Shown here piece after piece: positions 193 through 35,022 of a stretch of DNA of 35,251 nt (positions are counted from its first letter, which is position 1; each line of letters begins with the position of its first letter). Source of the stretch: an uncultured Prevotellaceae bacterium (lineage in GTDB: Bacteria; Bacteroidota; Bacteroidia; Bacteroidales; Bacteroidaceae); assembly GCA_900320565.1 (NCBI GenBank), contig ONSR01000054.1, positions 1 through 35,251 on the forward strand, written 5' to 3'. Under the pieces are notes generated by a model that saw only the letters and a program-made list of their open reading frames with translations, was not told the DNA's origin and did no database searches. The translations under genes were made by a program, and so were the position numbers.

Positions 193-270
193 TTAACGTG
201 TCGAGTTGGCGAACTTAACGTGTCGAGTTTTGCAACTTCACACGTCGAGTCTGGTGTGTTGACGTGAGGA
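193..270. repeat. 22-bp-period tandem repeat, locus 1
   Basis: Units start at 193, 215, 237 and 259, exactly 22 bp apart. The first two begin TTAACGTGTCGAGTT; the third and fourth are degenerate (TTCACACGTCGAGT, TTGACGTGAGG). On the opposite strand the unit reads AACTCGACACGTTAA, close to the AACTTGACACGTTAA seen at 11964 and 18372. It lies between the two tRNA-related transcription units and has no coding potential. Confidence 0.8.
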
Positions 271-271
271 C

Positions 272-304
272 AATAAAAAAGGGCCTCGCGTTGCGAAGTC
301 CTTT
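272..304 (-). terminator. Intrinsic terminator of the tRNA-Ser/tRNA-Glu unit
   Basis: An imperfect hairpin (279-303, loop GTT, core TCGC/GCGA and AAGG/CCTT) is followed on the minus strand by TTTTTTATTG. It lies directly after tRNA-Glu. Confidence 0.75.
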
Positions 305-306
305 TG

Positions 307-378
307 TAGCGCCTACGGGAATCGAACCCGTGTTCCATGCGTGAGAGGCATGTGTCCTAGCCGCTAGACGAAAGCGCC
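307..378 (-). tRNA. tRNA-Glu (anticodon CTC)
   Basis: On the minus strand the sequence folds as a cloverleaf: acceptor GGCGCTT with AGGCGCT, D-arm typical of tRNA-Glu (GTCTAGC...GGAC), anticodon stem CATGC/GCATG with loop CTCTCAC giving anticodon CTC, and T-arm ACGGG-TTCGATT-CCCGT. The 3' CCA is not encoded, as is common in this phylum. It is second in a two-tRNA unit behind tRNA-Ser. Confidence 0.92.
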
Positions 379-393
379 ATCATTTTGTTTTTG

Positions 394-572: not shown

Positions 573-591
573 GCATTTAAGGATTTTTTTG

Positions 592-3346: not shown

Positions 3347-3522
3347 CTGCTGTGAAAACAGGTGAATGGTGCTGTGAAGAAAGGAGGGATGTGCAGAGTA
3401 AAAGGGTAGGACGTGCTGTGGATTCCGTTCCAATCCGCCCGCCCTCATATGTTGGGGCGGCCGCCCCAACATCTTGGAGCGCTCGACCTTATCTGTGCGA
3501 GCGCCCGCCCAAAACTGTTTTT
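3347..3522. repeat. 22-bp-period tandem repeat, locus 2, filling the gap between the fusion gene and rpsP
   Basis: Eight units start every 22 bp from 3347. The first four share (C/G)TGC(T/A)GTG- or GTGCAGAG-type starts (3347, 3369, 3391, 3413). The last four share GC-rich starts of the CCGCCCGCCC type (3435, 3457, 3479, 3501). No convincing gene lies in 3309-3666. The GC-rich units create a 24-bp perfect palindrome at 3449-3472. Confidence 0.7.
3449..3472. repeat. 24-bp perfect palindrome
   Basis: ATGTTGGGGCGG followed immediately by its reverse complement. It lies across two 22-bp units. It has no T-tract and so is not an ordinary terminator. Confidence 0.8.
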
Positions 3523-7658: not shown

Positions 7659-7665
7659 TAAAAAA

Positions 7666-7693
7666 GTTTAGAGTTTAGGGTTTAGAGTTTAGA
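7666..7693. repeat. Heptamer array between divergent promoters
   Basis: Four exact-period units: GTTTAGA, GTTTAGG, GTTTAGA, GTTTAGA. It lies between the minus -7 box at 7651-7658 and the plus -7 box at 7703-7710, so it forms part of both upstream promoter regions. Confidence 0.8.
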
Positions 7694-7702
7694 GAAATTT
7701 TG

Positions 7703-7729: not shown

Positions 7730-8530
7730 ATGAAGGTTGCGTTGGTACAGATGGACATCGTCTGGGAGAACTCCAAGGCGAATCGTGAGGTGGCGGAGCG
7801 CTTGATGCTCGCTGCCGAGAAGTGCGACATTTACGTACTTCCCGAGATGTGGAGCACGGGCGTTACTACCGAACCAATGGGTGTGGCTGAGCCTGAGAAC
7901 GGCGAAACCCTACAGTGGATGCAAAGGATGGCAGACAAGTTGGATGCAGCAGTTGTGGGCAGCATCGCCGTCAAAGCACAGGACGGCTCTTATAGGAACA
8001 GACTTTACTTCGTCAAACCGAGAGAAAATGTTCAATGTTCTTCCCTTCGGTCAGGCGCAGGCGGAACAATGTTCAATGTTCAATGGTATGACAAGCACCA
8101 CCTCTTCTCGTATGGTGGCGAAACGAAGAACTACACGCCCGGGAACGAATATGTGACGGTCGAGTGGCGAGGCTTGCGCTTCCACCTCAGCATTTGCTAC
8201 GACCTGCGCTTCCCGATTTGGCTGCGGAACCGCGACGACTACGAAGTCCTCATCTGCGTGGCCTCCTGGCCTTCTGTGCGGATGCAGGCTTGGAGGGTGC
8301 TGCTTGCGGCTCGTGCCATCGAGAACCAATGCTATGTGTTGGGCGTGAACCGCATTGGCAAAGACCCATATTGCGAGTACAGCGGCGGCTCTTGCGTCGT
8401 CGATCCCTTCGGCTTTGCGACTGTTTGCCAAGACAACGAGGCCAGCGTCCTCACCCAGACCCTCGACCTGAAACGCCTCAAATCCTTCCGCGAAAAGTTC
8501 CCCGTACTGAAGGAAATGGATTCAATCTGA
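7730..8530 (+). CDS. Carbon-nitrogen hydrolase (nitrilase superfamily), omega-amidase YafV-like
   Basis: A 266-residue hydrolase that probably removes the amide from alpha-ketoglutaramate-type substrates (omega-amidase, glutamine/methionine salvage). The Glu-Lys-Cys triad is visible: E39 in VLPEMWSTGV, Lys in WYDKHHLF and Cys in SICYDLRFP. NRLYFV and VGVNRIGKDP also fit. The start is the ATG at 7730. Residues about 100-120 (from NVQCSSLRSG to TMFNVQ) are encoded by a heptamer-armed repeat lying in frame just before the catalytic-lysine loop, so activity may be altered or the insert may be looped out. It is a single gene with its own terminator. Confidence 0.85.
   Translation: MKVALVQMDIVWENSKANREVAERLMLAAEKCDIYVLPEMWSTGVTTEPMGVAEPENGETLQWMQRMADKLDAAVVGSIAVKAQDGSYRNRLYFVKPRENVQCSSLRSGAGGTMFNVQWYDKHHLFSYGGETKNYTPGNEYVTVEWRGLRFHLSICYDLRFPIWLRNRDDYEVLICVASWPSVRMQAWRVLLAARAIENQCYVLGVNRIGKDPYCEYSGGSCVVDPFGFATVCQDNEASVLTQTLDLKRLKSFREKFPVLKEMDSI
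8028..8089. repeat. Heptamer-armed element inside the nitrilase gene
   Basis: ATGTTCA and ATGTTCT on the left, a GC-rich core containing TTCGG and GCGCAGGC, then ATGTTCA, ATGTTCA and ATGG on the right. The core resembles that of the element at 17146-17240 (TTCG...GCGCAGCC). It is in frame without a stop, adding about 20 codons. Confidence 0.65.
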
Positions 8531-8573: not shown

Positions 8574-8608
8574 TTTCTAACAATGTAGTTTTGTTAGATT
8601 GTTAGAAA
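8574..8608. repeat. 11-bp inverted repeat at the edge of the restriction-modification cassette
   Basis: TTTCTAACAAT (8574-8584) and ATTGTTAGAAA (8598-8608) are perfect inverted copies. They span the stop codon of the specificity gene. No T-tract follows on the minus strand, so it may be a cassette boundary or an RNA-stabilising hairpin rather than a terminator. Confidence 0.6.
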
Positions 8609-9640
8609 AGATAGAATTGTTTGCGTTTTCCTCTCAATAGATTCCATATATTGTTCCATATAATCCCAATCGGGAGTACCCGTAGATGTGACAGGAAGCA
8701 AAACGGAGAAGTCTGTTCGCATATGCCTGTTCAATTCGTCAATAAAGGCCTTATATCGCAATCTCCCTTCTTTGAAAACCATTATAGAAATAAATCTTTT
8801 GCAATGATCAGACATGATATGTTTCGGAATGAGCACATTTACATTCTGACTTGTATAAAAAGGCTTCTCTTGAATAAAACAGGAGCCTAGATATTCTCCA
8901 CCTAGCGAAATTGTCAAATTGCCTGCTTCATATGGCGTTAGTCCTTCGATTTCATCTATAAAATCAGTTACGCCATTATTTGCATTTGCCCTTCCGACAA
9001 AATTGATACTAGGATTATTATCTGTCATTTTAACTTTATCTAATTTTGTTCCACTATCGATAGTAAACAAAGTATCATCATATAAATGAAATCTTTTCCA
9101 TGTTGTCGTATCAATCTTTGTCCGTGGCTTTCCAACTATGTTATATAATAAAGATATATTATTTCTTGCACCATCTTCTTTCTGTTGCATATAACGCTCC
9201 ATGTGTTGCCAATCGGGTTTGTTGTCGGCAGTGATGGGGAGTTTTATTATTTCGTCACTAACCTTTTGAGGGGAACATTTCTCTTCATATGAATATTTTC
9301 GGAACAATACTCCATCTAACATACAACTTATGAAAATTTTTGCCTTTTCGGGAATCTCCACCTTTTCTTTCAAGACAATAGCATCTCCATTCACATTAAA
9401 TGGATAGTTATGGTAAAATGAACTTCCACATCCTACCCCATTACACGAAATTGTTATTTGATTGCAATAAGGAGCATCTGCTTCATAATATCCCGCAACA
9501 CCCTGACAACTACGGGCAGCGGCTACTACTGGAGTAGGCCCTTCTGGAAGTATCTGTAATTTTTTTACCTTTCCTCTTTCAAAGTCAAATAAATCTCCAA
9601 CCCGAAAGTCTCCCCAGTTTGTGGTATCTATCTTTCTCAT
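8594..9640 (-). CDS. Restriction-modification specificity subunit (HsdS/BcgI-B-like)
   Basis: A 348-residue protein built as two similar halves, each opening with a target-recognition-like segment (IDTTNWGDFRVGDLFDFERG near 4-23; IDTTTWKRFHLYDDTLFTIDSG in the second half) and each closing with a PDW-x-YMERYM-type helix (PDWQHMERYM, PDWDYMEQYM). This duplicated layout is that of type I and type IIB specificity subunits, which read a bipartite DNA site. The length is close to the BcgI B subunit (about 340). Its ATG overlaps the stop of the upstream catalytic subunit by 4 bases, so translation is coupled. Base composition is clearly more AT-rich than in neighbours. The recognised DNA site cannot be predicted. 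Confidence 0.85.
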   Translation of the reverse strand: MRKIDTTNWGDFRVGDLFDFERGKVKKLQILPEGPTPVVAAARSCQGVAGYYEADAPYCNQITISCNGVGCGSSFYHNYPFNVNGDAIVLKEKVEIPEKAKIFISCMLDGVLFRKYSYEEKCSPQKVSDEIIKLPITADNKPDWQHMERYMQQKEDGARNNISLLYNIVGKPRTKIDTTTWKRFHLYDDTLFTIDSGTKLDKVKMTDNNPSINFVGRANANNGVTDFIDEIEGLTPYEAGNLTISLGGEYLGSCFIQEKPFYTSQNVNVLIPKHIMSDHCKRFISIMVFKEGRLRYKAFIDELNRHMRTDFSVLLPVTSTGTPDWDYMEQYMESIERKTQTILSFLTI

Positions 9641-11430
9641 ATATCTACCCCCTTTAATGTTATAATGGTATCATTATTGTTTTGCGAAATATGACTACCA
9701 TATAGAACCTTTTGCATTAGTTTTTCTTCAAACTCTTTCACATCAATACCTCTTTTGAAAAGTTCGTAATCCATCATTGTTTTTATAAAATCCTCTTCGA
9801 AGATTTCAAAGGGTTTTTCGGGCTTTTGATATGAAAGATGTTCGTTTGGATGAATGATTTGACGAGTGTTATATAAATCATCTACACCATTATGAATGGC
9901 ACATATCCAATAATCTTCTTTTTCCGGCCATTTGTTCCTTATATCTTGGCGTCCCTGATTTTTGACGGTTTCAAGTCCATCTTCCTCTATATAATAACCA
10001 ATAATGTCGCGTCCATTTTGAGAACGTTTTGCTTCGAAAACGAAAACAGAAGTCGTTACTCCTTGACCAAAGAATAAATTTTCGGGTAATTTTACAATTA
10101 AATTCAAAGTATGGTCCTTTAATAATTTATTACCATATCTTTTGTCCTTCATGTCTTTCTCGAGTTTTTTATCCGGCAAGATGAAAGCGCATTTCGTTCC
10201 CTGAGGAACAGAATCGAGTACGTTTTTGACGATAGTTAAACAACCATACTTTCTTTCAAATGGTGGGTTCATAAGAACCTTTGTAATGCCCTTGGATGCA
10301 ATCCACTCTTTTGCTTCTTCTGTTCTTGAATCTAATTGTTCAAGATTTGTTTTACCATCCTTATGTATAAGCATATTAGCGCATGCCAAAGCAAAAATCT
10401 CTTTGTCAAACTCTATACCGAACAAATGATTTCCTTTGATGTTTTTTGCTTCTTGGGTGCTAACTCCCCCAACTTCGTGTATCATATTACACATGGCTTT
10501 CACCAAAAAAGCCCCAGAACCGCAAGCCGCATCCAATACTCTGTCATCCTTATTTACATCGATAAGACGAAACATAAAAGAAGTAATATGGTCAGGAGTA
10601 AAGACTTGCCCAGATTCAGATTTCTTTTTGTAACGGTTGAACTCGTTGAAGAAGATGCCCATCACATCCTCGCCGTTCCAATAGTCAGAGTTCACGCATT
10701 CGGAAATCTCGCCAATCCTTTGAATAAAATCATCAATAGCTGACTGATTGCTATCATTATTCATCTCGATAGCATTATATGCTTTCGTTAGGAGTTGCAA
10801 TTTTAAGTTTTGTTGAAGGTCTGCCTGTATCGTTTGGTTTAGTGTGCTTAATATGCTTTGTTTTAGAGTAGAGAAGTCCATTCCCTTTTGCAGTAAAGCC
10901 CCATAACGCTTCGCAACTAAAGCGCAAGCGGTAAATATCATTCGTTTATAGAGATTCTTTATTCCAAATTGTGTATGAAGAGAATCGTTGATTTGTTTTG
11001 TAATACGAAATATTTTTTGCTTGTCGATTTGTTGCTGCGTATATAGGCACTTGTAGTAGTGCTTATGCTGCAATGTTGAAGCAACACCTGTGATTTCTTC
11101 ATCGTTTTTGAAAACACGAATGTCTACACCATTATATAAAATTCCAACGACTTTTGAATATTTGGCTCGAACAAATTCAATGTTCTTTTCTAATTCTTTA
11201 ACCCATTTAGATTTGGTTAAATCTTCTTTTTCTGCTTTGGTTTCAAGGATTATTGCGACTTCTCCCTTATCAGAAGGAAGATACCATCCGTCGGGCTTGT
11301 TTGTGTTGCCAGTAAAACCTAATTGATTAAAGGTGGTAATTTGACCAGTACCTTGTTGTACATTTTCTTCTCCGTCATCAAAACCGAGAATAATTTTGGC
11401 TTCGTCTCTTACTTGGTCTTCGGTTCTCAT
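9637..11430 (-). CDS. Combined restriction nuclease-N6-adenine methyltransferase subunit (BcgI-A-like, type IIB/IIG)
   Basis: A 597-residue protein. Residues about 45-70 carry a PD-(D/E)xK-like nuclease pattern (PDGWYL...VAIILETKAEK). The middle is helical. From about residue 280 comes an N6-adenine methyltransferase: DAACGSGAFLVKA (AdoMet-binding motif I), FGIEFDKEIFALA, and catalytic NPPF (motif IV). One polypeptide therefore both cuts and methylates, with specificity supplied by the next gene. Size and two-gene layout match BcgI (about 640 and 340 residues), which cuts on both sides of its site. No separate helicase/HsdR is present, which argues against type I. It is AT-rich, so probably acquired. 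Translation starts next to a perfect hairpin. Confidence 0.85.
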   Translation of the reverse strand: MRTEDQVRDEAKIILGFDDGEENVQQGTGQITTFNQLGFTGNTNKPDGWYLPSDKGEVAIILETKAEKEDLTKSKWVKELEKNIEFVRAKYSKVVGILYNGVDIRVFKNDEEITGVASTLQHKHYYKCLYTQQQIDKQKIFRITKQINDSLHTQFGIKNLYKRMIFTACALVAKRYGALLQKGMDFSTLKQSILSTLNQTIQADLQQNLKLQLLTKAYNAIEMNNDSNQSAIDDFIQRIGEISECVNSDYWNGEDVMGIFFNEFNRYKKKSESGQVFTPDHITSFMFRLIDVNKDDRVLDAACGSGAFLVKAMCNMIHEVGGVSTQEAKNIKGNHLFGIEFDKEIFALACANMLIHKDGKTNLEQLDSRTEEAKEWIASKGITKVLMNPPFERKYGCLTIVKNVLDSVPQGTKCAFILPDKKLEKDMKDKRYGNKLLKDHTLNLIVKLPENLFFGQGVTTSVFVFEAKRSQNGRDIIGYYIEEDGLETVKNQGRQDIRNKWPEKEDYWICAIHNGVDDLYNTRQIIHPNEHLSYQKPEKPFEIFEEDFIKTMMDYELFKRGIDVKEFEEKLMQKVLYGSHISQNNNDTIITLKGVDI

Positions 11431-11851: not shown

Positions 11852-11983
11852 GTGATTTCTCACGTCAAATTATCCTTTATCATTTGACGAGTTGCTCAAC
11901 ATGACTCGTCAGATTCGTTGATTCATCATGATGAATCGATTGGTGCATCATGATGAATCAAACAACTTGACACGTTAAAATAA
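11852..11983. repeat. 22-bp-period tandem repeat, locus 3
   Basis: Six units start at 11852, 11874, 11896, 11918, 11940 and 11962. The fourth and fifth (11918-11939, 11940-11961) are palindromes around CATCATGATG with TTG...CAA-type ends. The third contains GACTCGTCA and the last AACTTGACACGTTAA. The same central position of each unit carries CATG, CACG or CTCG. The array ends in the T-tail of the rel terminator. Apart from this array, the small RNA and the terminators, I see nothing in 11431-12085. Confidence 0.75.
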
Positions 11984-18481: not shown

Positions 18482-18490
18482 TTTTTATTG

Positions 18491-18519: not shown

Positions 18520-19275
18520 ATGTCAAACAGATCCTTAATACTTATCTCGAACGACGATGGTGTCGCGGCGCAGGGACTGGGGGTGCTGACCGATTTGATG
18601 TGCCAGCTTGGCGACGTCATCGTGGTGGCTCCCGACGGGCCGCGCAGCGCGGCATCCTGCAGCATATCGCCCCTCAGCACGATTACCATTAAGCTCGTGC
18701 GGGAGCATCCTGGCTTGAAGGTCTATCAATGCAGCGGAACGCCCACAGATTGCGTGAAGCTGGCGCTGGACGGACTGCTCGAGAGGCGGCCCGACCTGGT
18801 GGTGAGCGGCATCAATCACGGCGATAATGCGTCGGTTTCGGTGCACTACAGCGGTACTGTCGGCGCGGCTTTCGAGGCTTGCATGAAGGCTGTTCCGGCC
18901 ATCGCATATAGCCTCAAGACCCGAAGCTTGCAATGTGACTTCCGACCTTACGAGGCTGAAGTGGTCAGGATAGCCCGTTACGTCCTCGAACACGGCTTGC
19001 CAGAGGATGTGCTGCTCAACGTCAACTTCCCCGAAGTGCCTGAACTGAAGGGCACTCGCGTCTGCCGAACCGGTCGCGGACGCTGGATGAAAGAGATGAT
19101 GCAGGTGGGCGAAGGCGAGTACCAACTCACAGGTTATTTCCAGAACCTCGAGCCCGAAGCAGAAGACACGGACTATTGGGCCCTCGATCACGGCTATGCG
19201 TCCATCACGCCCATACAGCTCGATATGACGGCACACGATTACCTCAATTCACAATTCACAATTCATAATTCATAA
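18520..19275 (+). CDS. surE: 5'/3'-nucleotidase SurE
   Basis: A 251-residue metal-dependent phosphatase that removes phosphate from nucleoside monophosphates. Diagnostic segments are ILISNDDG near the N-terminus (metal-binding Asp pair), VVAPDGPRSAAS, SGINHGDNASVSVHYSGTVGAAFE and LLNVNFP. The start at 18520 is set by the promoter. The final residues NSQFTIHNS are encoded by the left arm of a heptamer element. It is cotranscribed with lpxB, an arrangement common in Bacteroidales. Confidence 0.95.
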   Translation: MSNRSLILISNDDGVAAQGLGVLTDLMCQLGDVIVVAPDGPRSAASCSISPLSTITIKLVREHPGLKVYQCSGTPTDCVKLALDGLLERRPDLVVSGINHGDNASVSVHYSGTVGAAFEACMKAVPAIAYSLKTRSLQCDFRPYEAEVVRIARYVLEHGLPEDVLLNVNFPEVPELKGTRVCRTGRGRWMKEMMQVGEGEYQLTGYFQNLEPEAEDTDYWALDHGYASITPIQLDMTAHDYLNSQFTIHNS

Positions 19276-19350
19276 TTAGGCTACGCCATAAGCCCAAAGT
19301 TATAAGCAGGAGTGATGAATTATGAATTGAGAAATATGAATTATGAATTA
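19247..19350. repeat. Heptamer-armed inverted element between surE and lpxB
   Basis: Left arm ATTCACA, ATTCACA, ATTCATA, ATTCATA (19247-19274); core starting TAGGCTACGCC; right arm TGAATTA, TGAATTG, one degenerate unit, TGAATTA, TGAATTA (19316-19350). The core start matches TTAGGCTGCGCC of the parA/parB element read on the minus strand. It holds the surE stop and ends 5 bases before the lpxB ATG. Confidence 0.8.
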
Positions 19351-19355
19351 ATATA

Positions 19356-20582: not shown

Positions 20583-20616
20583 ATAGTAAATAGTAAATCA
20601 TTAAATTCTAAATTAG
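20581..20616. repeat. Heptamer array between lpxB and the ABM gene
   Basis: AAATAGT, AAATAGT, AAATCAT, then AAATTCT and AAATTAG. It begins inside the lpxB stop codon and ends 3 bases before the next ATG, so it fills the ribosome-binding region. Confidence 0.65.
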
Positions 20617-20619
20617 ACT

Positions 20620-20895
20620 ATGATCCGTCTTAATTGTTTCTTCCAAGCCAAGAAGGGTAAGTACAACGAAGCCCTTGAGGCAGCCATTCTGCTCACTGCA
20701 AAGACTCAGAAGCACGAGGGAATGGTAAGCTACGACGTTTTTGAAAGTGCTACACGCAAGGACATCTTCATGTTCTGCGAGACCTGGGAAAGCGAAGAAG
20801 CCCTGGCAAAACATGCCGCCACACCAGAGTTCAAGGAACTCGTGGGCATCATCGAGAACTGCGGCGACATGAAGATCGAGAAGCTGACGCTGTAG
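20620..20895 (+). CDS. ABM-domain monooxygenase (putative quinol monooxygenase, YgiN-like)
   Basis: A 91-residue single-domain dimeric alpha-beta barrel of the antibiotic-biosynthesis-monooxygenase family. Signs are RLNCFFQAKKGKYNEALEAA, EGMVSYDVFESATRKDIFMFCETWESEEAL and HAATPEFKEL. Members oxidise quinols or act on small aromatics; the substrate here is unknown. It lies 37 bases after lpxB, probably as the last gene of that unit, and is followed by a strong terminator. Confidence 0.85.
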   Translation: MIRLNCFFQAKKGKYNEALEAAILLTAKTQKHEGMVSYDVFESATRKDIFMFCETWESEEALAKHAATPEFKELVGIIENCGDMKIEKLTL

Positions 20896-20926
20896 TCGTC
20901 TGCACGAAACCTGTTAGGCCAGACTA

Positions 20927-20966
20927 AAAGAGGGCTACCTATTTCATCATATAGGTAGCCCTCTTT
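20927..20966. terminator. Bidirectional terminator between the ABM gene and porZ
   Basis: A perfect 16-bp stem (20927-20942 with 20951-20966; AAAGAGGGCTACCTAT half) with an 8-base loop and A/T runs at both bases, serving two converging units. Confidence 0.92.
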
Positions 20967-20993
20967 GTGCAAAGCAATATGCAGGCTTTGCAA

Positions 20994-23303: not shown

Positions 23304-23360
23304 CGTCGTTCTGTTATGGTATGACAGGAAGTTTTCTATGCGACATGTAGGGGTTTTTCA

Positions 23361-23480
23361 TTCCCCTATAGGGCGCCAGTCATTCCCCTATAGGGCGTTG
23401 CTTATTCCCCTATAGGGCGTTGGTCACTCCCCTATAGGGCGTTGGTCACTCCCCTATAGGGCGTTGAAGATTCCCCTACG
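23361..23480. repeat. 22-bp-period tandem repeat, locus 5 (CCCTATAGGG type)
   Basis: TTCCCC or CTCCCC starts recur at 23361, 23383, 23405, 23427, 23449 and 23471, exactly 22 bp apart. Five units carry the palindrome CCCTATAGGG followed by CGTTG or CGCCA; the sixth is broken (CCCTACGGAGGG). It lies between porZ and the rdgB stop. Confidence 0.92.
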
Positions 23481-23543
23481 GAGGGTTTTGAAGGCTTCCT
23501 TGTCTAATACATCTTTTATATATTCAATAACGAAAAAGTCGGG

Positions 23544-24134
23544 TCAATTATTGCTTTGGGCCACAAGATATTCTGCCAGTTTCTTCGTGGCTCGCCCACG
23601 ATGGCTGATGCTGTTCTTTGCTTCGGCACTCATTTGGGCAAAGGCGAGGCCGCCTGCTTCAGTGGGAGCGAAGACTGGGTCGTATCCGAATCCACCTTCG
23701 CCGGCACGCTGCGGCAATATCTCGCCTTCCACGATGCCTTCGAAGAGTCTTTCCTTACCATCCTGAACGAGGGCTATGACTGTACGGAAGCGAGCCTTGC
23801 GTGTCTCTGCCTTTTCTATCTTGTCGAGCAGGCATCGTATGTTGGCATCGGCATCATGGCTTTCGCCATATCCGTTCATGGCACCGAAACGAGCCGTATA
23901 GACTCCTGGCGCTCCGCCGAGTGCATCTACCTCCAAGCCAGTGTCGTCGGCAAAACAATCTACGCCATAGTGCTCATGGACATATCGTGCCTTCTGCAAG
24001 GCATTGCCCTCCAGCGTGTCGGCCGTCTCGGGGATGTCCTCGGTGCAGCCGATGTCGCTCAGCCCTTTCACCGTGAAGGCACTGCCCAGTATCTGCCGGA
24101 TCTCCTCCAGCTTGTGGGCATTGTTGGTTGCCAT
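23544..24134 (-). CDS. rdgB: Non-canonical purine NTP pyrophosphatase (RdgB/HAM1)
   Basis: A 196-residue house-cleaning enzyme hydrolysing dITP/XTP to monophosphates. Segments MATNNAHKLEEIRQIL at the start, CFADDTGLEVDALGGAPGVYTARF, and GGFGYDPVF, SHRGRA near the end are diagnostic. A longer frame begins at 24194, but its extra 20 residues (GNKEFPLKGVRRSII part) are encoded by a palindromic repeat element. Family proteins begin at (F/M)ATNN, and AGGAGG lies shortly upstream of the ATG at 24134, so I use that start. It is the gene before porZ. Confidence 0.92.
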   Translation of the reverse strand: MATNNAHKLEEIRQILGSAFTVKGLSDIGCTEDIPETADTLEGNALQKARYVHEHYGVDCFADDTGLEVDALGGAPGVYTARFGAMNGYGESHDADANIRCLLDKIEKAETRKARFRTVIALVQDGKERLFEGIVEGEILPQRAGEGGFGYDPVFAPTEAGGLAFAQMSAEAKNSISHRGRATKKLAEYLVAQSNN

Positions 24135-24142
24135 GATGATGG

Positions 24143-24239
24143 ACCTCCTAACCCCCTTCAGGGGGAACTCTTTATTACCTTCTTCTCCTGTCATGTCATA
24201 GTTTGTGTTTAATTTCCACTAAAGAGGGTTAGGGGGTCT
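24143..24239. repeat. 97-bp palindromic element between yitT and rdgB
   Basis: GACCTCCTAACCCCCTT (24143-24159) and AAGAGGGTTAGGGGGTC (24223-24239) are inverted copies with two mismatches; a smaller hairpin CCCCCTTCAGGGGG sits in the left end. Length and ends match the element in lpxB. It reaches from the yitT stop to 9 bases before the rdgB ATG and seems to supply its AGGAGG. Confidence 0.8.
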
Positions 24240-25147
24240 TACTTCTTTATGGGGTCGAAGCCTTCGCCAAAGACGCCTTCTACGTTGCTCATAGAGACGA
24301 ATGCCTGCGGGTCGATGCGCTTGATGAGCTGGAATATGCTGCGACTCTCATAGCGCTTGGCCAGGATGAGCAGCACCTGCCGCTTCTCCTTGCTATAGAA
24401 CCCTTCGCCCGATAGAACGGTTACGCCTCGCTCGAGTCTTGTATTGACCTCCTCTGCTATTTTCTCGTACTGTTCGCTGATGATGATGAACTGCACGCTT
24501 CGCCTTGCCGAGTTGATGACATAGTCAAGGAAGTTGAGGCTGATGAACATTGCCAGGTAGCCCACCACCATCGTCTCGATGTCGTGCGAGATAAAGTAGC
24601 TGCCGCCGATGATGACGATGTCGAGCATCAGGAGCAGTCGGCCGAGGGAGATGTCCCAATACTTGTTGATGGAGCTGGCAATGATGTCTGTGCCACCCGT
24701 ACTGCCGCCTGCCAAGAAGATGGTTGCCAAGCCAAGACCTTCAAGGAAGGCACCAATGACGCAGGCCATGAACTTCTGTTCGCCTATGATGTGCATAAGC
24801 GTATGGTGACCATCTGCACCAACGACGGTGAGCTGGGTCTGCATGATGCCGATAGCACTCGAGATGAGTAGCGTCACAATGATTGTGCGTACCAGATAAC
24901 GCCAGCCCAGTATGCGCATAGCCATCAGGAGCAAGCCTACATTTATAATTAAGTAGGTGTTGCCTGCAGGAAACCCTGTCAAGTAGTACAGGATGGTGGA
25001 GATACCCGTAACGCCTCCACTGACTATCTTATAAGGCAATAGGAAGCAGGCATAGCCAACCGTGTAGATGACTGTGCCCAGCAACATCTGCAGATAGTCG
25101 CGCAGTAGTTGCCAAGGTGAAGGTCCTATGATGTCCTTTATCGTCAT
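24239..25147 (-). CDS. YitT family membrane protein (DUF161/DUF2179), copy 2
   Basis: A 302-residue protein with five or six membrane segments in its first 200 residues and a soluble DUF2179 C-terminal domain (GVTVLSGEGFYSKEKRQVLLILAKR ... RIDPQAFVSMSNVEGVFGEGF). The FLAGGSTGGTDIIA loop is a family hallmark. Function is not established; some members are linked to export or sporulation in Firmicutes. Its ATG overlaps the stop of copy 1 by 4 bases, and the two are tandem paralogues. Confidence 0.88.
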   Translation of the reverse strand: MTIKDIIGPSPWQLLRDYLQMLLGTVIYTVGYACFLLPYKIVSGGVTGISTILYYLTGFPAGNTYLIINVGLLLMAMRILGWRYLVRTIIVTLLISSAIGIMQTQLTVVGADGHHTLMHIIGEQKFMACVIGAFLEGLGLATIFLAGGSTGGTDIIASSINKYWDISLGRLLLMLDIVIIGGSYFISHDIETMVVGYLAMFISLNFLDYVINSARRSVQFIIISEQYEKIAEEVNTRLERGVTVLSGEGFYSKEKRQVLLILAKRYESRSIFQLIKRIDPQAFVSMSNVEGVFGEGFDPIKK

Positions 25148-26037
25148 GGCTTTATGACATTAAACCCGTTCCCATAGACACCCTCTGCTCTGCTCTGCGA
25201 GACGAAGGCAGCAGGGTCGGTCTCTTGAATCATGCGCAATATCTTGACGGACTCTCTCTTGTGTACAATGGTGATCAGCACCTTAATGTCTTGATGACTG
25301 TAATAGCCCTCGCCATTCATCGAGGTCACGCTGTGGCAGGTCTCTGATATGATGCGTTGGCAGATTTCGTCGGGTTTCCTTGTGAAGATGATGAACTGGA
25401 TGTCTTGCCTTGCGCTGTTGATGAGCATGTCCAGGGCATAGGTATAGACAACCAAAGTGACGTAGCCAAACACAACCATCCTGACATCATGGAAGATGGG
25501 CCAGCACGAAGCAATGACCACAAAGTCGAGAATCAGCAAGGCTCGGCCGAAGGTGATGTTGCGATACTTGTTCACGAGGGCCGCTATGATGTCCCATCCG
25601 CCCGTACTTCCTCCTGTGAGGAACACAATGCCGATGCCCAAACCGTTCAGTATGGCACCAAGCACGCAGGCCATCGAGTCTTGGCCTTCGCCAAGGATCT
25701 GCATCAAGTGTCCGCTCTCATCTGTCATCATCTGTTGCCCCAGCTCGAGGAAAGAGGAAAGGGCAATGGTTGCGTATGCCGTCTTGCCGACAAACTTCCA
25801 ACCAAGTGGCTTGATGGCAATGATGAGCAGGATGGAGTTGGCAATGAGCACGGCAGCCGAGATGGGGAACTTCGTCAAGTAGTAAAGGATGGCGAACATA
25901 CCCGTCATGCCGCCCGTCGTGATGTGATAGGGCAACAGGAACGCGGCCCAACCCAAGGCATAGATGGCCATGCCGAGGTTGATGGCCAGGAAGTCCAGCG
26001 TGAACTCCCATATTCTGCGATAGTTTACCTTTGGCAT
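25144..26037 (-). CDS. YitT family membrane protein (DUF161/DUF2179), copy 1
   Basis: A 297-residue paralogue of the next gene with the same layout: PYHITTGGMTGMFAILYY, FLTGGSTGGWDIIAALVNKY, and a DUF2179 end (NGEGYYSHQDIKVLITIVHKRES ... AFVSQSRAEGVYGNGFNVIKP). The start codon shares its A with the leuS stop codon, so leuS and both yitT genes are translationally coupled. Two retained copies may form a heteromer, which is inference. Confidence 0.88.
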   Translation of the reverse strand: MPKVNYRRIWEFTLDFLAINLGMAIYALGWAAFLLPYHITTGGMTGMFAILYYLTKFPISAAVLIANSILLIIAIKPLGWKFVGKTAYATIALSSFLELGQQMMTDESGHLMQILGEGQDSMACVLGAILNGLGIGIVFLTGGSTGGWDIIAALVNKYRNITFGRALLILDFVVIASCWPIFHDVRMVVFGYVTLVVYTYALDMLINSARQDIQFIIFTRKPDEICQRIISETCHSVTSMNGEGYYSHQDIKVLITIVHKRESVKILRMIQETDPAAFVSQSRAEGVYGNGFNVIKP

Positions 26038-28865
26038 TATGCTTTTGGCTTTACTACGATGTTGACGATGCGCTTAGGGATAGCGATGGTCTTCACTATG
26101 TCCATTCCCTCAAGATGCTTAGCTGCCTCGGGTGCTGAGGTAGCAAGCTCTATCATCTGCTCCGGTGTTGCATCGGCAGGGAAGAGCATGTCGAAACGCA
26201 CCTTACCGTTGAACTGCACGCCGAGCTTCACGCTGGTCTCAACGAGATACTTCTCCTCGTACTGCGGCCACCTTGCATCGCAGACACTTCCTTCGCCGCC
26301 GAGTGCTTCCCAAAGCTCTTCTGCGATGTGCGGTGCAAAGGGAGCGATGAGGACGGGCAGCGTCTGGAGTACGGTGCGGCTGCTGCATTTCTGCTGGCTC
26401 AACTCGTTGACTGCGACCATGAATGCCGAGATGCTCGTGTTGTAGGAGAACGCCTCGATGTCGCCTGTCACCTTCTTGATGAGCTTATGCAGCGTCTTGA
26501 GGCTGTCGGCAGAGGGTTCGTCGTCGGTCAACGCGAGGTTGCCGTCTTTGTCCCAATACAGCGCCCACAACTTCTTGAGGAAGCGGAAGCAACCGTCTAT
26601 GCCGTTGGTGTCCCAAGGCTTCGACTGCTCGACCGGACCGAGGAACATCTCGTAAAGGCGCAACGTATCTGCCCCATAGTTCTCGACAATCATGTCGGGA
26701 TTGACGACGTTGTACATCGACTTAGACATCTTCTCGATGGCCCAGCCGCAGATGTACTTGCCATCTTCGAGGACGAAGTCTGCCGTAGCGTACTCCGGAC
26801 TCCAGGCCTTGAAGGCTTCCAGGTCGAGGATGTCGTTCTTCACGATGTTTACGTCCACATGGATAGGCGTGACGTCGTACTTGTCTTTCAAGCCTAAAGA
26901 GACAAACGTGTTAGTCTCCTTGATGCGATACACGAAGTTGGAGCGCCCTTGAATCATGCCTTGGTTGACGAGTTTCTTGAAGGGCTCTTCCTTCTTACTT
27001 ACGCCGAGGTCGAAGAGGAACTTGTTCCAGAAGCGTGAGTAAATAAGGTGACCTGTGGCATGCTCCGAGCCGCCGACGTAAAGATCGACGTTCTGCCAAT
27101 ATGATGCGGCACGGTCGCTGACCAGAGCCTGATCGTTGTGCGGGTCCATATAGCGCAGATAGTAGGCACTCGAACCTGCAAAGCCAGGCATGGTATATAG
27201 TTCGATGGGATAGATGCCGGCAGCCTCGTCAATGAGTTTCTTATCGACAATCTTGCGATTCTTCTCGTCCCAAGCCCAAATCTGGGCATTGCCGAGAGGC
27301 GATTCGCCTGTTTCCGTCGGCAAGAACTTCTCGACTTGTGGCAACTCGATGGGTAGGCACTCTTCCGGTATCATAGTGGGGATGCCCTTTTTGTAATAGA
27401 CGGGGAAGGGCTCGCCCCAGTAGCGCTGACGGCTGAAGATAGCGTCGCGAAGGCGATAGTTTACTTTGACGCGACCCAGATTGTGTGCCTTGACGAAGCG
27501 CTTTGTCTCGGCAATTGCCTCCTTAATAGTGAGGCCATTCAGGCAGAGACGCTCTCCGTCATACTCGACACTCTTGTCCGGCGTGATGGGCGAATTGATG
27601 ACAATGCCTTCCTTGGCATCGTAGCTTTCCTCCGAAATGTCGGCGCCTTCCACGAGCGGAATGATGGGCAGGTCGAAGTGCTTGGCAAAGGCATAGTCTC
27701 TGCTGTCGTGAGCAGGCACAGCCATAATGGCACCTGTGCCGTAGCCGGCAAGCACGTATTCTGCGATATAGATGGGGCATTTGTCGCCCGTAATGGGATT
27801 GATGCCGTAGGCACCGCTGAAGACGCCCGTCACGGTGTGGTCTATCATGCGTTCCCTCTCGGTGCGGCTCTTGACGTACTTCAGGTACTCATCTACTGCA
27901 GCACGCTGGTCGGGTGTAGTAACCTTATCGACGAGTTCGCTTTCGGGAGCGAGGACGAAGAAGGTAACGCCGAACATCGTGTCGGCTCGCGTGGTGAAGA
28001 TGGTGAAGGAACCTGCCTCGTCTCCATCTTTGGAGAGGGTATAGGGAATCTCTATCTCAGCTCCTTCGCTACGGCCTATCCAGTTGCGTTGTGTTTCCTT
28101 GATGCTCTCGCTCCAATCGATGGTGTCGAGGCCGTCGAGGAGGCGCTGGCTGTAGGCACTGACACGCAGGCACCATTGCCGCATCTTCTTCTGTTCGACG
28201 GGATAGCCGCCACGGACGCTGACGCCTTCCACCACTTCATCGTTGGCGAGCACTGTGCCGAGCTTTGGGCACCAGTTCACCATCGTCTCGCCCAGGAAGG
28301 CGATGCGATAGTTCATCAGCAGGTCGCTCTGAGCCTTCTCGTCGGCTGGCCAAGTTCCTTCCTGCTTGAACTTCTCGATGAGCTTCTCGATGGGCTGAGC
28401 CTTCTGGAGTTCCTCGTCGAAATATGAGTTGAACATCTTTTGGAAGGCCCATTGCGTCCACTTGTAGTAGTCGGGTGTGCAAGTGCGCACTTCTCTGTCC
28501 CAGTCGAACGAGAAACCTATCTTATCGAGCTGCTCGCGATAGCGGTCGATGTTGGCGAAGGTAGTCTTCTCGGGGTGCTGACCTGTCTTGATGGCGTACT
28601 GCTCGGCAGGCAAACCGTAAGCATCATAACCCATGGGGTTCAAGACATTGAAGCCTTGTTGACGCTTGTAGCGTGCATAGATGTCGCTTGCGATGTAGCC
28701 GAGCGGGTGGCCTACGTGGAGGCCTGCACCGCTGGGGTAGGGGAACATGTTGAGGACATAGAACTTCTCTCGACGTTCATCCTCTGTTACCTTGTATGTC
28801 TGGCGTTCCGTCCAAAGGCGGTGCCACTTCTGTTCTATCTCGCGAAAGTTATATTCTTTTACCAT
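26037..28865 (-). CDS. leuS: Leucyl-tRNA synthetase
   Basis: A 942-residue class I synthetase. The N-terminus [19 protein letters not shown]-type motif in [16 protein letters not shown], editing (CP1) domain with [12 protein letters not shown], zinc-insert region, KMSKS motif in [14 protein letters not shown], and anticodon-binding C-terminus are all present. A longer frame to 29009 would overlap the upstream membrane-protein gene; the ATG at 28865 gives the family start and lies 4 bases after that gene's stop. Confidence 0.97.
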
Positions 28866-29858: not shown

Positions 29859-29962
29859 GGCAGGTCGGATTTGTCGATGAAGGCAGGGGCGTTTCTCAAC
29901 GCAGGCAGTTGAATTTGCAATTCCCCTATAGGGCGTTTGTAATTCCCCTACGTTGATTTCAT
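29859..29962. repeat. 22-bp-period repeat, locus 6 (CCCTATAGGG type)
   Basis: TTCCCCTATAGGGCG at 29921 and a broken TTCCCCTACG at 29943 are 22 bp apart and match locus 5. Upstream, GGCAG recurs at 29859, 29882 and 29904 (23 and 22 bp), probably degenerate units. The wider gap 29665-30159 has no gene that I can support. Confidence 0.6.
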
Positions 29963-31489: not shown

Positions 31490-34276
31490 ATGAGACGATT
31501 TGTATTGCCCATTGTGGCGTTATTCATGATGATACAGAGTGCAGTCGCAAGCGACCTGACAGGTTTCCGCGTTTGCCGTATGAAAGAACCCGCCGGAATA
31601 ACCCGAACTGCACAGTTCTCCTGGCAGACAGTCAGCGAGAAACCCAATGTGAAGCAGATGGCCTACCGCATTCTCGTGGCGACATCGAAGGCCGACATCA
31701 AAGCCGAACGCAACCTCCTTTGGGACAGCGGCCGCACGAGTAACGACGAAAGCATCGCTGTGCCTTATCAGGGACGACGCTTGCCCTACCAGAGCCGTGT
31801 GTTCTGGCAGGTCGAGGTCTGGCTTAGCACGGGCGAGCACATCGTCAGCCCCATGCAAAGCTTCCTGACGGGACTCAAGGCGTTCGACGGCAAAGCACAA
31901 TGGATAGGCATCGACGACGCCGACCGCATCGTGACGGGCGACAACCAGAGCCGTGATCTGCCGGCACGTTATTTGCGCCGCGCCTTCTATCTCGACAAGA
32001 AGCCCCGCCGCGCCACCCTGTATATAAGTGGTATGGGATACGGCCAGACGTACATCAACGGCAAGGCGGTCAGCAAGGATGTCTTCGGTACGTTGCAGAC
32101 GGACTACACCAAGACTGTCTATTACAACACATACGATGTGACGAAGCTCTTGCGTCGAGGCAACAACGCCATTGGCTCCATCCTGGGCAACGGCTATGTG
32201 CTTGGCTTCAACCCGAGTTGCACGTCATACGGTTTGCCTCGCTTGAAGGCACAACTCGTCGTAGAGAACGACAAAGACACGCTGACCATCGTGAGCGGTC
32301 CAGACTGGAAAGCCACGTCAGAAGGCCCGATACAACGCAATCATCTCTATGATGGCGAACGCTACGAAGCAGCCCGCGAGATGAAAGGCTGGCTGACGGC
32401 TTTCTTCGACGACAGTGCTTGGGGACAAGCCCAGACACTGAAGGCGCCTACGGGCATCATGCAGCCACAGCCCTGTCCCAGTATGAGAATACAGAAGGAA
32501 CTGAAGCCAAAGAGCATTCGCCGCACGGATGATGGCCGCTTCCTCGTCGATATGGGACAGAACATGGTAGGTCAGCTTCGTGTACGCCTTGCAGGAAAGA
32601 AGGATGTGCCCGTCGTTATCCGCCATGCCGAGATACTCGACCCGAGCAATCCCGACAAGCTTTCCGTTGCCAACCTCCGCTCTGCAAAGTGTACCGACAC
32701 ATACATCCCCGCCTCAGACGGCACGTTTACTTACCAGCCGCAGCTCACCTATCAGGGCTTCCGCTTTGTGGAAATCAGCGGCATCAGCGTAGAGCCTAAA
32801 CTGACGGACATCACTGGCCTGGTCATCTACGACCAGATGGCCGACCAAGGCACCTTCTGGTGTGACAACGAGCTCCTCAATAAGTTGCACGAGAATGCCT
32901 ATTGGGGCATCATCGGCAACTATCATGGTATGCCCACGGACTGCCCTCAGCGCGACGAACGAATGGGCTGGCTGGGCGATCACGCCATGGGATGCTACGG
33001 CGAGAATCTCGTCGTAGATAACGGCGAACTCTATTACAAGTGGCTGCAAGACGTTTGGGATACGCAGGACGACGATGGCATGATTGCCAACGTGGCACCC
33101 GGCTATTGGGTGGTTCGCGGCAATGATGTGGCTTGGGGGGCGCTTTCGGTATATGCTACCTTCATGCTCTATCGTCGTTACAACGATGTGAATGCCGTGC
33201 AGAAGTACTATCCGTTCCTGCAGAACTACATGAACTTCCTGGAGCGCACCCTGCAGGATGGCATCGTGACGGGCAATAACTATGGCGACTGGTGCATGCC
33301 TCCCGAACGACCCGACCTGATTCATAGCGAAGATCCGGCTCGCAAGACGGACGGCAGACTCATCTCCACAGCCATGTATTACAGCATGCTTACGATGATG
33401 GGACAGATGGCGATGCAGCTCGGACGCGAGGGAGACATGTTGGATTACGACCGTCGTCAGCAGAAGCTGAAGGAGACATACAACCGTCACTTCTACCATC
33501 CCGAGTCGGGCAGCTATGCGAACAATACCGTGACGGCAAACCTCTTGTCGCTCGAGTTCGGCCTCGTTCCCTATGGCGACGAGGAGAAAGTCCTGCAGAA
33601 CGTCGTCGATGTGACCGAGAAGACCTATAACAACCACATCAGCTGCGGCGTGATTGGCATGCAGCACCTCTTGACGTGCCTGACACGAAGCGGCCACCTC
33701 GACCAAGCCATGCAGTTGATGCTGCAGAAGGACTATCCCAGCTTTGGCTATATGATAGAGAATGGCGCTACGACCATCTGGGAGCTTTGGAACGGCAACA
33801 CTGCCGACCCCGCCATGAACAGCGGCAATCATGTGATGCTCCTCGGTGATGTCCTGCCCTGGATGTATGGCAGTCTGGCTGGCATAAGGCAGTCGCCAAG
33901 GAGTCGTGCCTTCAAGGAACTGGACATGTACCTCAGTATGCCTGACGAGTTGAACCATGTCCGTGCCACTCACAACACGCCTTATGGCAAGATAAGCAGT
34001 GAATGGTGGCGTACGGAGGAAGGCATCACTTGGGTGGTCGATATACCTGCCAACACGTCTGCCCGTATTCATCTTCCCACCGGCTACACCATCCAGGGCA
34101 TGCACAGCCTGCGTTGGGCCAGTGCGGAGATAGAGGGCGACGACATTTGCCTGTGTGTCGGTTCGGGCATCTACACGATTGATGCTCACAAGACCTTCAC
34201 CGAGACGCAGCCCACAATATTCCACAAGGTGACGAACACCATAAAGAACATCCCCGAATTCCTCAAAAACTTATAA
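31490..34276 (+). CDS. Exported alpha-L-rhamnosidase, GH78
   Basis: A 928-residue enzyme that releases terminal L-rhamnose from plant glycans such as rhamnogalacturonan or flavonoid glycosides. Signal peptide RRFVLPIVALFMMIQSAVA; N-terminal beta domains (ARYLRRAFYLDKKPRRATLY, YINGKAV, DYTKTVYYNTYDVT); then the (alpha/alpha)6 barrel with MPTDCPQRDERMGWLGD (general-acid Glu region), and ENGATTIWELWNGNT with the second catalytic-type Glu. Length is usual for family 78. The start at 31490 gives a clean signal peptide. It is followed after 8 bases by a regulator-like gene, so both share one transcript. Confidence 0.93.
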   Translation: MRRFVLPIVALFMMIQSAVASDLTGFRVCRMKEPAGITRTAQFSWQTVSEKPNVKQMAYRILVATSKADIKAERNLLWDSGRTSNDESIAVPYQGRRLPYQSRVFWQVEVWLSTGEHIVSPMQSFLTGLKAFDGKAQWIGIDDADRIVTGDNQSRDLPARYLRRAFYLDKKPRRATLYISGMGYGQTYINGKAVSKDVFGTLQTDYTKTVYYNTYDVTKLLRRGNNAIGSILGNGYVLGFNPSCTSYGLPRLKAQLVVENDKDTLTIVSGPDWKATSEGPIQRNHLYDGERYEAAREMKGWLTAFFDDSAWGQAQTLKAPTGIMQPQPCPSMRIQKELKPKSIRRTDDGRFLVDMGQNMVGQLRVRLAGKKDVPVVIRHAEILDPSNPDKLSVANLRSAKCTDTYIPASDGTFTYQPQLTYQGFRFVEISGISVEPKLTDITGLVIYDQMADQGTFWCDNELLNKLHENAYWGIIGNYHGMPTDCPQRDERMGWLGDHAMGCYGENLVVDNGELYYKWLQDVWDTQDDDGMIANVAPGYWVVRGNDVAWGALSVYATFMLYRRYNDVNAVQKYYPFLQNYMNFLERTLQDGIVTGNNYGDWCMPPERPDLIHSEDPARKTDGRLISTAMYYSMLTMMGQMAMQLGREGDMLDYDRRQQKLKETYNRHFYHPESGSYANNTVTANLLSLEFGLVPYGDEEKVLQNVVDVTEKTYNNHISCGVIGMQHLLTCLTRSGHLDQAMQLMLQKDYPSFGYMIENGATTIWELWNGNTADPAMNSGNHVMLLGDVLPWMYGSLAGIRQSPRSRAFKELDMYLSMPDELNHVRATHNTPYGKISSEWWRTEEGITWVVDIPANTSARIHLPTGYTIQGMHSLRWASAEIEGDDICLCVGSGIYTIDAHKTFTETQPTIFHKVTNTIKNIPEFLKNL

Positions 34277-34284
34277 TACGAACC

Positions 34285-34965
34285 ATGATACAGAACGATT
34301 TGCAACGCCTTCGTTGGATGATTCTCGACGAGGCTCTTCGCGACCCTGAAATGGAGTATTTCATGGGCGAACGTACCAAAACAAACGAGACAGGCAACAC
34401 GCGCAGCCTGATTCATTATGTGAACCAGCGCCTCAAGGCTGTCAACCGAGACTTCAAGTGCAGCAAACGTATGTTGCAGAACGATGTGGCTTACTTCGTG
34501 CAGAAGGGCGCAAAGCTCGAGCCACGCTTCCGTCGTGGCCACAAACGCATCCTGCGTTACATCAACCTCGACTGGAAGAACCCTCTCCTGAAAGCCGCTT
34601 CCTTCCTTCGCTACGAGGCTGGTCCGGTCGAGACTCCTGCTTTGCCCGACGGACCGCTGACGCCCGTCACCCTTCGCATCACGGCTGGCGAGGAAGCCAT
34701 CCGTGCCAAGCTCGGCAACCCTGAAGTGCTCCAGCGCAGCAGCGACAGCCAGACAAACTCTGTCACCCTGCAGGTGGAGCTTCCCCAGAGCAGCCAACTG
34801 CAGTATTTCCTCCTGGGTCTTGGCCCCGACATCGAGGTCTTGGCGCCCGAAAACCTGCGCGACGACATCCGTCAGACCGTAGCTAATCTGCAGAAGCTCT
34901 ATAAGAAGGAAACCGCTTCGGCCAAGAAAACTGTTCAGGGCGACCTGTTCGAAGGGCTATTCTAA
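34285..34965 (+). CDS. WYL-related regulator lacking the WYL core
   Basis: A 226-residue protein. Residues 1-95 look like the DNA-binding start of Bacteroidales WYL regulators (LRWMILDEALRDPEMEYFM, CSKRMLQNDVAYFV, RILRYINLDW-NPL). Residues about 130-205 resemble the C-terminal WCX extension (VTLRITAGEEAIRAKLG, VTLQVELPQSSQLQYFLLGLGPDIEVLAPENLRDDI). The ligand-binding WYL barrel that normally lies between (about 100 residues) is missing; full-length relatives are about 320 residues. The end, QGDLFEGLF, contains a QxxLF pattern like sliding-clamp-binding peptides. Placed between GH78 and GH2 genes it could regulate them, which is inference. Confidence 0.6.
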   Translation: MIQNDLQRLRWMILDEALRDPEMEYFMGERTKTNETGNTRSLIHYVNQRLKAVNRDFKCSKRMLQNDVAYFVQKGAKLEPRFRRGHKRILRYINLDWKNPLLKAASFLRYEAGPVETPALPDGPLTPVTLRITAGEEAIRAKLGNPEVLQRSSDSQTNSVTLQVELPQSSQLQYFLLGLGPDIEVLAPENLRDDIRQTVANLQKLYKKETASAKKTVQGDLFEGLF

Positions 34966-34978
34966 CGAGGTGAGTTGA

Positions 34979-35022
34979 TTGCATGTACATGTATCTGCAA
35001 CGAATATGACTCGTTAAGGTGA
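34979..35022. repeat. 22-bp-period repeat, locus 7
   Basis: Unit 34979-35000 has the form TTGCA-N2-ACATGTA-N2-TGCAA and matches the palindromic units of locus 4, including the preceding GTTGAT. Unit 35001-35022 contains ATGACTCGTTAA at the same internal position as the locus 3 unit at 11896. Confidence 0.8.

Follow-up and report, generated by a model that had tools for sequence, protein, structure and literature searches.

Arrays of operators and plasmid iterons, the 22-bp plasmid iterons among them, consist of sites that are spaced by one or two turns of the helix and bound side by side; these arrays are not known to be dispersed over a chromosome or to lie at gene 3' ends, and have a sequence fixed by one protein. 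Bacterial interspersed mosaic elements (BIMEs) are located at gene 3' ends. Repetitive extragenic palindromic (REP) elements are, in the accessible parts of the sources, palindromic, intergenic repeats of high copy number (PMC2817692, PMC3733652). Within the Bacteroidales, the available text on Porphyromonas gingivalis describes BrickBuilt, a miniature inverted-repeat transposable element (MITE) of one sequence family with a 23-nt unit, present at 19 loci in 1 to 22.8 copies and bearing a leader and a tail with IS5-type inverted ends; one sentence of the same text mentions 22-nt direct repeats in strain W83, without sequences or places (PMC4596501). Here we describe tandem arrays of often dyad-symmetric 22-bp units in the genome of an uncultured Prevotellaceae bacterium, starting from a 35,251-bp stretch (the window) that is an entire contig (G000:C92:1-35251) of the assembly G000 (2.63 Mb in 122 contigs, 89% complete). 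Judged from sequence, the arrays may be cis-acting phased dyad sites for a dimeric protein at gene ends, a reading that we favor while giving it slightly less than an even chance.

These arrays resemble REP elements and BIMEs, as far as the accessible sources go, in being intergenic and palindromic, in their unit length (within 20–40 bp), high copy number and species-specific families, and in lying 3' of genes and rarely between divergent ones. Unlike REP elements and BIMEs, they keep a strict head-to-tail period of 22 bp that is common to 30 unit clusters of one genus. The cross-family consensus of these clusters contains no GTAG or CGTC tag of the kind found in REP palindromes. The Y1 transposase domain PF01797 (of RAYT proteins, the REP-associated tyrosine transposases) has 0 matches in the 89% complete G000 assembly and was found in 5 of 14 control genomes; with no Y1 transposase in this assembly, we rejected a REP/RAYT system. 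Likewise, ACGTTAAG recurs at a 22-bp period and is a word that we take to be a LytTR-type site motif, yet the LytTR regulator domain PF04397 has 0 matches in G000 (5 of 14 control genomes contain it), and LytTR-type direct-repeat sites were set aside for want of such a protein. With operator and iteron arrays the 22-bp arrays share a site spacing of whole helical turns; they differ in being dispersed over the chromosome, in sitting at gene 3' ends and in their varying sequence. They also display what is expected of phased dimer-binding arrays, namely dyad-symmetric constraint (seen in one species pair) and fixed helical spacing. BrickBuilt shares with them a Bacteroidales host and a short, dispersed, intergenic tandem unit. 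The initial annotation of the window had held that BrickBuilt does not cover the 22-bp set, and we agree: on the available text, its 23-nt unit, single family and leader and tail rule it out for arrays that have 22-bp units in about four copies, many families and mostly no homology past the array (PMC4596501). In the open literature on Bacteroidetes, Bacteroidales and Porphyromonas, with most subscription papers outside the search, we found no description of such a 22-bp palindromic intergenic system.

In the window, the arrays and related features are as follows:

193 to 254, unstranded: array of 2.8 units of the TTAACGTGTCGAGTT type (Tandem Repeats Finder (TRF) period 22; 23/30 matches at lag 22).
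3436 to 3488, unstranded: weak lag-22 segment from the lag-22 scan, doubtful as an array.
11908 to 11964, unstranded: array of about 2.6 TTGATTCATCATGATGAATCAA-type units, then one AACTTGACACGTTAA-like unit (lag 22).
18253 to 18335, unstranded: array of about 3 units of the TTGCAYRTACATGTAYRTGCAA type (TRF, lag 22).
18371 to 18410, unstranded: a pair of degenerate AACTTGACACGTTAA-type units spaced by 22 bp (by eye).
23346 to 23488, unstranded: array of about 6 units of the CCCCTATAGGGCG type, 3' of a Ham1-like gene (TRF, lag 22).
29918 to 29957, unstranded: a 22-bp-spaced pair of CCCCTATAGGG-type units, of which the second is truncated (p 0.001).
34979 to 35000, unstranded: single TTGCATGTACATGTATCTGCAA unit with no tandem copy (lag-22 p 0.46).

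Seven intergenic loci with a common 22-bp period had been proposed, and six of them stand. We compared the best 30-bp window of each locus with 1000 dinucleotide shuffles. The lag-22 matches at loci 193 (23/30), 3347 (21/30), 11852 (21/30), 18238 (29/30) and 23361 (30/30) were reached by 0/1000 shuffles, and those at 29859 (19/30) had a p of 0.001. Locus 34979, by contrast, is a lone unit without a tandem copy and gives no lag-22 signal (10/30, p 0.46). Two of the proposed starts shift: the array assigned to 11852 lies at 11908–11964, and that assigned to 29859 at about 29918–29957. Of the six, the 3347 region is the weakest, since its signal is split into two weak parts, a GCTGTGAA pair with a spacer between (by eye) and 3436–3488, the latter also being a GC-rich inverted repeat. 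TRF at a minimum score of 30 reports period 22 in the window only at 193–254, 18259–18326 and 23358–23478. All loci are intergenic within the window, as claimed; in the larger sample described below, 1 of 55 segments falls inside a called gene.

The excess at lag 22 continues beyond the window. The initial annotation had named the lack of such an excess in the genome as a refuting result, and this result did not appear over the 415,844 bp analyzed. Our sample of the source genome covers 415,844 bp, made up of the window and 20 stretches (380.6 kb) from contigs with prior matches, and is not random. At 70% identity, it contains 55 segments at lag 22 and 0–11 at the other lags from 8 to 60, except for lags 14 (32 segments, heptamer microsatellites) and 44 (42 segments, the harmonic). 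At 90% identity, 30 segments are left at lag 22, 10 at lag 44 and 0–2 at all others. Extrapolating the sampled density, the whole genome would carry some hundreds of arrays. In 20 stretches of 19 congeners (369,869 bp) we found 28 lag-22 segments, whose units differ from those of the source genome, followed by lags 21 (17), 44 (15), 14 (14) and 42 (13); 8 of the 20 stretches have no lag-22 segment. From eight closer congeners (432,999 bp) came 70 such segments, of which a few resemble microsatellites; their stretches were mostly picked around orthologs of genes that adjoin arrays in the source genome (two G034 stretches are common to both congener samples). A further 20 stretches, drawn from as many other families of the order and totaling 272,622 bp (several are short), gave only 1 segment. 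A fixed period combined with a free unit sequence, the core of the original observation, is thus seen in both the source genome and the sampled congeners.

The units themselves are diverse. Among 147 segments from 16 genomes, 104 were kept after a shorter-period filter (43 dropped), and these 104 arrays form 30 unit clusters by single linkage at 16/22 (chance best matches are mostly 8–13), a few of which resemble other simple repeats. This rules out one universal unit, despite a weak consensus over the 30 clusters, CAAW-N3-CACGTG-N3-WTTG (3.63 bits vs a null of 3.08 +/- 0.08), that hints at common ancestry or a common contact pattern. Dyad scores of at least 8/11 pairs occur in 39/104 arrays (37.5%), compared with 1.9% of shuffled units, and the identity of adjacent units (38/104 arrays) is roughly symmetric about the dyad, at 0.80–0.90 for positions 1–4 and 0.45–0.63 for positions 10–11. 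Using seven family words and consecutive same-orientation cores 16–28 bp apart (n=128), we found a core spacing of exactly 22 bp in 125 neighbor pairs and of 21 bp in 3, all in G035; the next spacing classes are 44 bp and, in G035, 43 bp. The G035 stretch L182 is alone among the seven family sets in having 21-bp (3) and 43-bp (4) steps, perhaps a naturally occurring variation on the spacing rule. Dyads found at 11, 33 and 55 bp follow from tandem palindromes and add no separate evidence. Segment length peaks at 4 units in 53 of the 104 arrays (middle half 3.6–4.6), as measured with a detection window that cuts off below about 2.4 units and perhaps stretches the ends.

One dispersed family of the source genome, CCCCTATAGGGCG, has 203 matches with at most one mismatch over the two strands, a count in which palindromic sites may in some cases figure twice, against 0 for a reversed-pattern control. 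A second dispersed family, TTGCATGTACATGTACATGCAA, is accompanied by many smaller ones, including AACACGTTAAGTT, AACTTCTGCAGAGAAGTT, AAATCCTGCAGGATTT, AGGGACGCGTCCCT and CAGTACCACCGTGGGAGTACTG. Families are bound to species: the CCCCTATAGGG pair occurs in 2/61 genomes, and the GGTTAACC pair (at most one mismatch) in 8/139 genomes of the genus, with 270 forward matches in G011, 238 in G023 and at most 22 in any other genome. In the named genome collection, the CCCCTATAGGG pair at 22-bp spacing matched 19 stretches, 16 of which lie in metagenome-assembled genomes labelled Bacteroidales, Bacteroidaceae or Prevotellaceae, several of them named for sheep, roe deer or reindeer. Single CCCCTATAGGG-N11-CCCCTATAGGG matches in L067, L068 and L069, labelled Acidimicrobiales, Rhodospirillaceae and Bacteroides, may be chance, mislabelled bins or real copies. 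By eye, several arrays of G007 (L184, L185, L197) have at their start or end a cap, CTGCAG or CTGGAG, that looks like a special core of the terminal units.

Arrays favor the 3' ends of genes. Placed with a simple gene caller in 24 genomes, the 55 segments of the source genome lie in codirectional (32), convergent (11) and divergent (2) gaps, at stretch edges (9) and within a gene (1). The corresponding numbers are 44, 22, 7, 4 and 0 for 77 segments of the eight closer congeners, and 7, 0, 2, 5 and 0 for 14 segments of 15 other congeners. Divergent gaps thus hold 11/127 placed segments, compared with about 22 expected by length, and for 70/83 codirectional arrays the nearer gene end is the 3' end of the upstream gene.

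The same 3' sites carry arrays in related species, mostly in other letters. For three arrays that lie between convergent genes in the source genome, we fetched the 3' sides of the orthologs in 41 genomes of the genus. At the first site (C49:56.6 kb), the source genome and G019 share a family, and G035, G026, G007 and G011/G023 display four other 22-bp families; the neighbor gene was confirmed for G019, G035, G011 and G023 and not for G026 or G007. G012 has no array within 219 bp of sequence there, nor do more distant species, bar a weak array in G003. At the second site (C49:35.3 kb), the source genome and G035 share a family in which both arms changed (AGTAC..GTACT to AGTCC..GGACT), and four other families occupy G007, G023, G011 and G019. 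In G026 the segment found there has lag 21 instead, and additional lag-22 segments occur in four distant species. At the third (C36:7.5 kb), the arrays of the source genome and G007 belong to different families, G011/G023 are mixed and below threshold, G035, G034, G026 and G012 have none, and an array is present in the distant G004 and G024.

Across unique reciprocal-best gene pairs whose 3' gaps are both at least 50 bp long (n=290), arrays occupy both orthologous sites in 106 pairs, compared with 77.4 expected and a maximum of 90 in 2000 permutations; because pairs within an ortholog group are not independent, this and the following co-occupancy p-values are optimistic. Without the seed loci, and stratified by species pair and gap type, the count is 54/193 vs 38.7 (maximum of 2000 permutations 49). 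Restricting this set further to gaps of 100–500 bp leaves 30/57 vs 26.2, reached by 4/2000 permutations; part of the excess could also come from a common preference for 3' gaps with ample room. Unit similarity in the 106 co-occupied pairs is at most 13/22, the level of chance, in 89 and at least 17 in 14; counting each array pair once, 78/93 lie at or below 13/22.

Where arrays can still be aligned, they evolve slowly and at discrete positions. We compared G011 (280,000 bp, 32 arrays) with G023 (248,456 bp, 35 arrays), in which 1273/2532 G011 array bases could be aligned, the remainder being unalignable or without a fetched ortholog. Substitutions amount to 101/1496 (6.8%) in arrays, 3068/22353 (13.7%) in other intergenic DNA and 6465/99257 (6.5%) in coding DNA. 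Arrays thus change half as fast as other intergenic DNA (Fisher p 1e-16), and a smaller earlier run pointed in the same direction (28/486 vs 560/5626). Ordered by distance 1–7 from the dyad, changes number 0/102, 1/101, 7/99, 1/98, 10/97, 8/100 and 0/97, so that positions 3, 5 and 6 change at 7–10%; distances 8–11 change at 8–15%. A dimeric DNA-binding protein would be expected to leave such a mixture of fixed and free positions. An RNA stem is a less likely cause, because it would hardly tolerate changes at position 3 while fixing position 7. A change near the center, GCTTAACC in place of GGTTAACC, is tolerated and would break a stem. None of the three sites at which G011 and G023 disagree is a clean empty insertion site: at two of them an array can be seen in either genome and the difference arises from the threshold, and the third lies in a rearranged region.

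Exact spacing, dyad symmetry, 3' location and slow evolution at symmetric positions together lead us to favor phased sites for a dimeric protein, the best supported of the three ideas offered by the initial annotation (the others being a copying mechanism and hairpin RNAs). An array would typically present about four dyad-symmetric candidate sites, one per 22 bp, at the end of a transcription unit, and each dyad would be bound by a dimer. Since a helical repeat of about 11 bp makes 22 bp two full turns, a relation that is plain arithmetic and might be the cause of the period, the dimers would line up on one face of the helix and bind side by side. Side-by-side dimers could form a boundary at the gene end that acts on nucleoid structure, supercoiling or read-through. 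The letters might drift as copies are homogenized among loci, with the specificity of the protein co-evolving or being loose, and selection would keep the spacing and the site. A broader proposal, possible but tentative, is that the arrays form a genus-wide class of elements kept in position, spacing and symmetry and not in letters: a putative protein or recombination machine would recognize phased 22-bp dyads at gene ends, and families would sweep through genomes and replace each other in register, the site outliving its sequences.

Several observations weigh against phased dimer sites. No named candidate for the putative binding protein emerged, and many families in one genome are hard to fit to one sequence-specific protein. 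Clearly dissimilar dyad cores show no excess at 22 bp, so that unrelated cores are not in general arrayed in register, and the fixed spacing of non-homologous units is limited to single cases (L115/L116, L038:2052, L049:11675). The co-occupancy excess is modest and could reflect permissive sites. The divergence test covers one species pair, one dominant family and only arrays that can still be aligned, and substitutions per indel are 20.2 in arrays and 20.3 in other intergenic DNA, meaning that avoidance of indels in arrays is not seen on this short time scale. Finally, 16 of the 22 terminator-like hairpins at array-bearing 3' ends of congeners lie within the array.

The explanation that we rank second, and regard as doubtful, is that of REP/BIME-like selfish palindromes, whose species-specific families would be copied by an enzyme into permissive 3' sites, with 22 bp as the footprint of the enzyme and arrays at orthologous sites as independent arrivals. 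It would account for the species-bound families, the BIME-like location at 3' ends and, perhaps, the end caps in G007, and it draws strength from signs of copying between loci. The 34 CCCTATAGGG spacers, taken from 15 places, include 22 identical pairs at different loci vs 3.7 expected, a count reached by 1/5000 shuffles. Moreover, in 29/37 strong array–array alignments within the source genome, homology extends no more than about 20 bp past the array; of the other 8, 6 involve one contig-end repeat, 1 a neighboring array and 1 a longer repeat in L048. The copying mechanism suggested by the initial annotation thus gains from spacers that recur at unlinked loci and from homology that mostly ends at array edges, but no enzyme was found: lacking a PF01797 match in the G000 assembly, a selfish repeat would need another enzyme. 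It would also have to explain one period across 30 unit clusters and an evolution slower than that of intergenic DNA with site-like constraint. The presence of mixed arrays (L038:2052, L049:11675, L115/L116) suggests in-register exchange of units, and this stays a suggestion because dissimilar dyads show no general 22-bp excess.

L031:1-444 and L043:1-305, at the ends of contigs C35 and C56, share one contig-end repeat in which 22-bp arrays of different families follow each other (AAATCC..GGATTT and AACTTCTGCAGAAGTT, with GGGACGCGTCCC additionally in L043); it perhaps adjoins a multi-copy operon where the assembly broke. In G011, L186:11424-12569 contains two near-identical direct arrays around about 1 kb with a 146-aa lipoprotein-like open reading frame. 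The gene pair concerned is only 132–148 bp apart in the source genome, G035, G007 and G019 and about 10 kb apart in G023, which looks like the gain or loss of a gene between arrays.

That the arrays act as 3' RNA hairpins or bidirectional terminators is quite improbable, even though their 3' location and the hairpins within congener arrays speak for it. Array-bearing 3' ends do not clearly have terminator-like hairpins more often than array-free ones, in the source genome (codirectional 5/27 vs 15/85; convergent 8/22 vs 10/26) or in congeners (codirectional 10/39 vs 13/67; convergent 12/40 vs 7/26), and in the source genome 4/13 of the hairpins at array-bearing ends lie within the array. On the sense strand of 38/83 codirectional arrays (at least 60% paired positions), A.C mispairs exceed G.U mispairs (115 vs 71; 83 vs 43 at up to 40 nt from the stop codon), the opposite of what RNA pairing predicts. 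A strand-arbitrary control of convergent and divergent gaps leans the same way (45 vs 34); a link between the asymmetry and the sense strand is thus not clear, though no excess of G.U is seen. Good RNA folds are obtained for seven arrays (z -1.8 to -6.4), which carries little weight because any palindrome array would give them. Rfam has no match in the window other than two tRNAs. Together with the stem-breaking change from GGTTAACC to GCTTAACC and the nearly fixed positions 1, 2, 4 and 7, the mispairs disfavor the hairpin RNAs that the initial annotation had listed.

A purely mutational origin, in which slippage and palindrome correction would generate arrays without function and 22 bp would reflect polymerase or repair geometry, fits the template switching to which palindromes are prone and the gain or loss of one unit between near-identical strains (the genome RGIG6885 from sheep rumen is 97–98% identical to window positions 18958–27054, with a gap of about 130 bp, and its counterpart of the 23346–23488 array has exactly one 22-bp unit fewer, with changed spacers and unchanged cores), but is quite unlikely given the narrow segment length around 4 units (detection floor about 2.4), the conservation of arrays between G011 and G023, dispersed families that require copying between loci, and the near absence of arrays from stretches of other families of the order.

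Within the window, the 193–254 array precedes the 3' side of a tRNA-Glu gene (306–378, minus strand), and sequence upstream of it at about 136–165 resembles, by eye, a hairpin plus T-run. The 3436–3488 segment lies between convergent genes for a DegT/acetyltransferase-domain protein and ribosomal protein S16, and the 11908–11964 array sits 3' of a RelA/SpoT-domain gene. The 18253–18335 array is one of two in the source genome that occupy a divergent gap (ParA-like/SurE). Its TTGCAYRTACATGTAYRTGCAA unit is, by eye, a near-unbroken alternating pyrimidine–purine run of about 20 bp with a Z-DNA-like composition, and changes at variable positions of this family are mostly pyrimidine to pyrimidine or purine to purine. 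At 8594–11430 lies an AT-rich gene pair, type I restriction-modification-like, one of whose members has an N-6 DNA methylase domain (PF02384); as the codon-usage gene caller missed them, these genes were perhaps acquired. Many heptanucleotide microsatellites (AGTTTAG, TTTTCAC, CAATTCA, AAATGGT, TAAATAG and others, some as facing inverted pairs) are found at 7665–7694, 8067–8085, 17146–17240, 18454–18485, 19245–19350, 20149–20182 and 20580–20598.

Bacterial repeats are usually classed by sequence, whereas in these arrays length, symmetry and place are conserved; since their sequence turns over between species, alignment-based searches miss them. With these arrays one can test directly whether geometry, and not letters, lets a protein hold its place on a chromosome, and they provide a natural series of co-evolving site families with which to find the binding protein. 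If the arrays indeed mark or insulate gene ends, they would constitute a chromosome-organizing system of this ruminant-gut genus.

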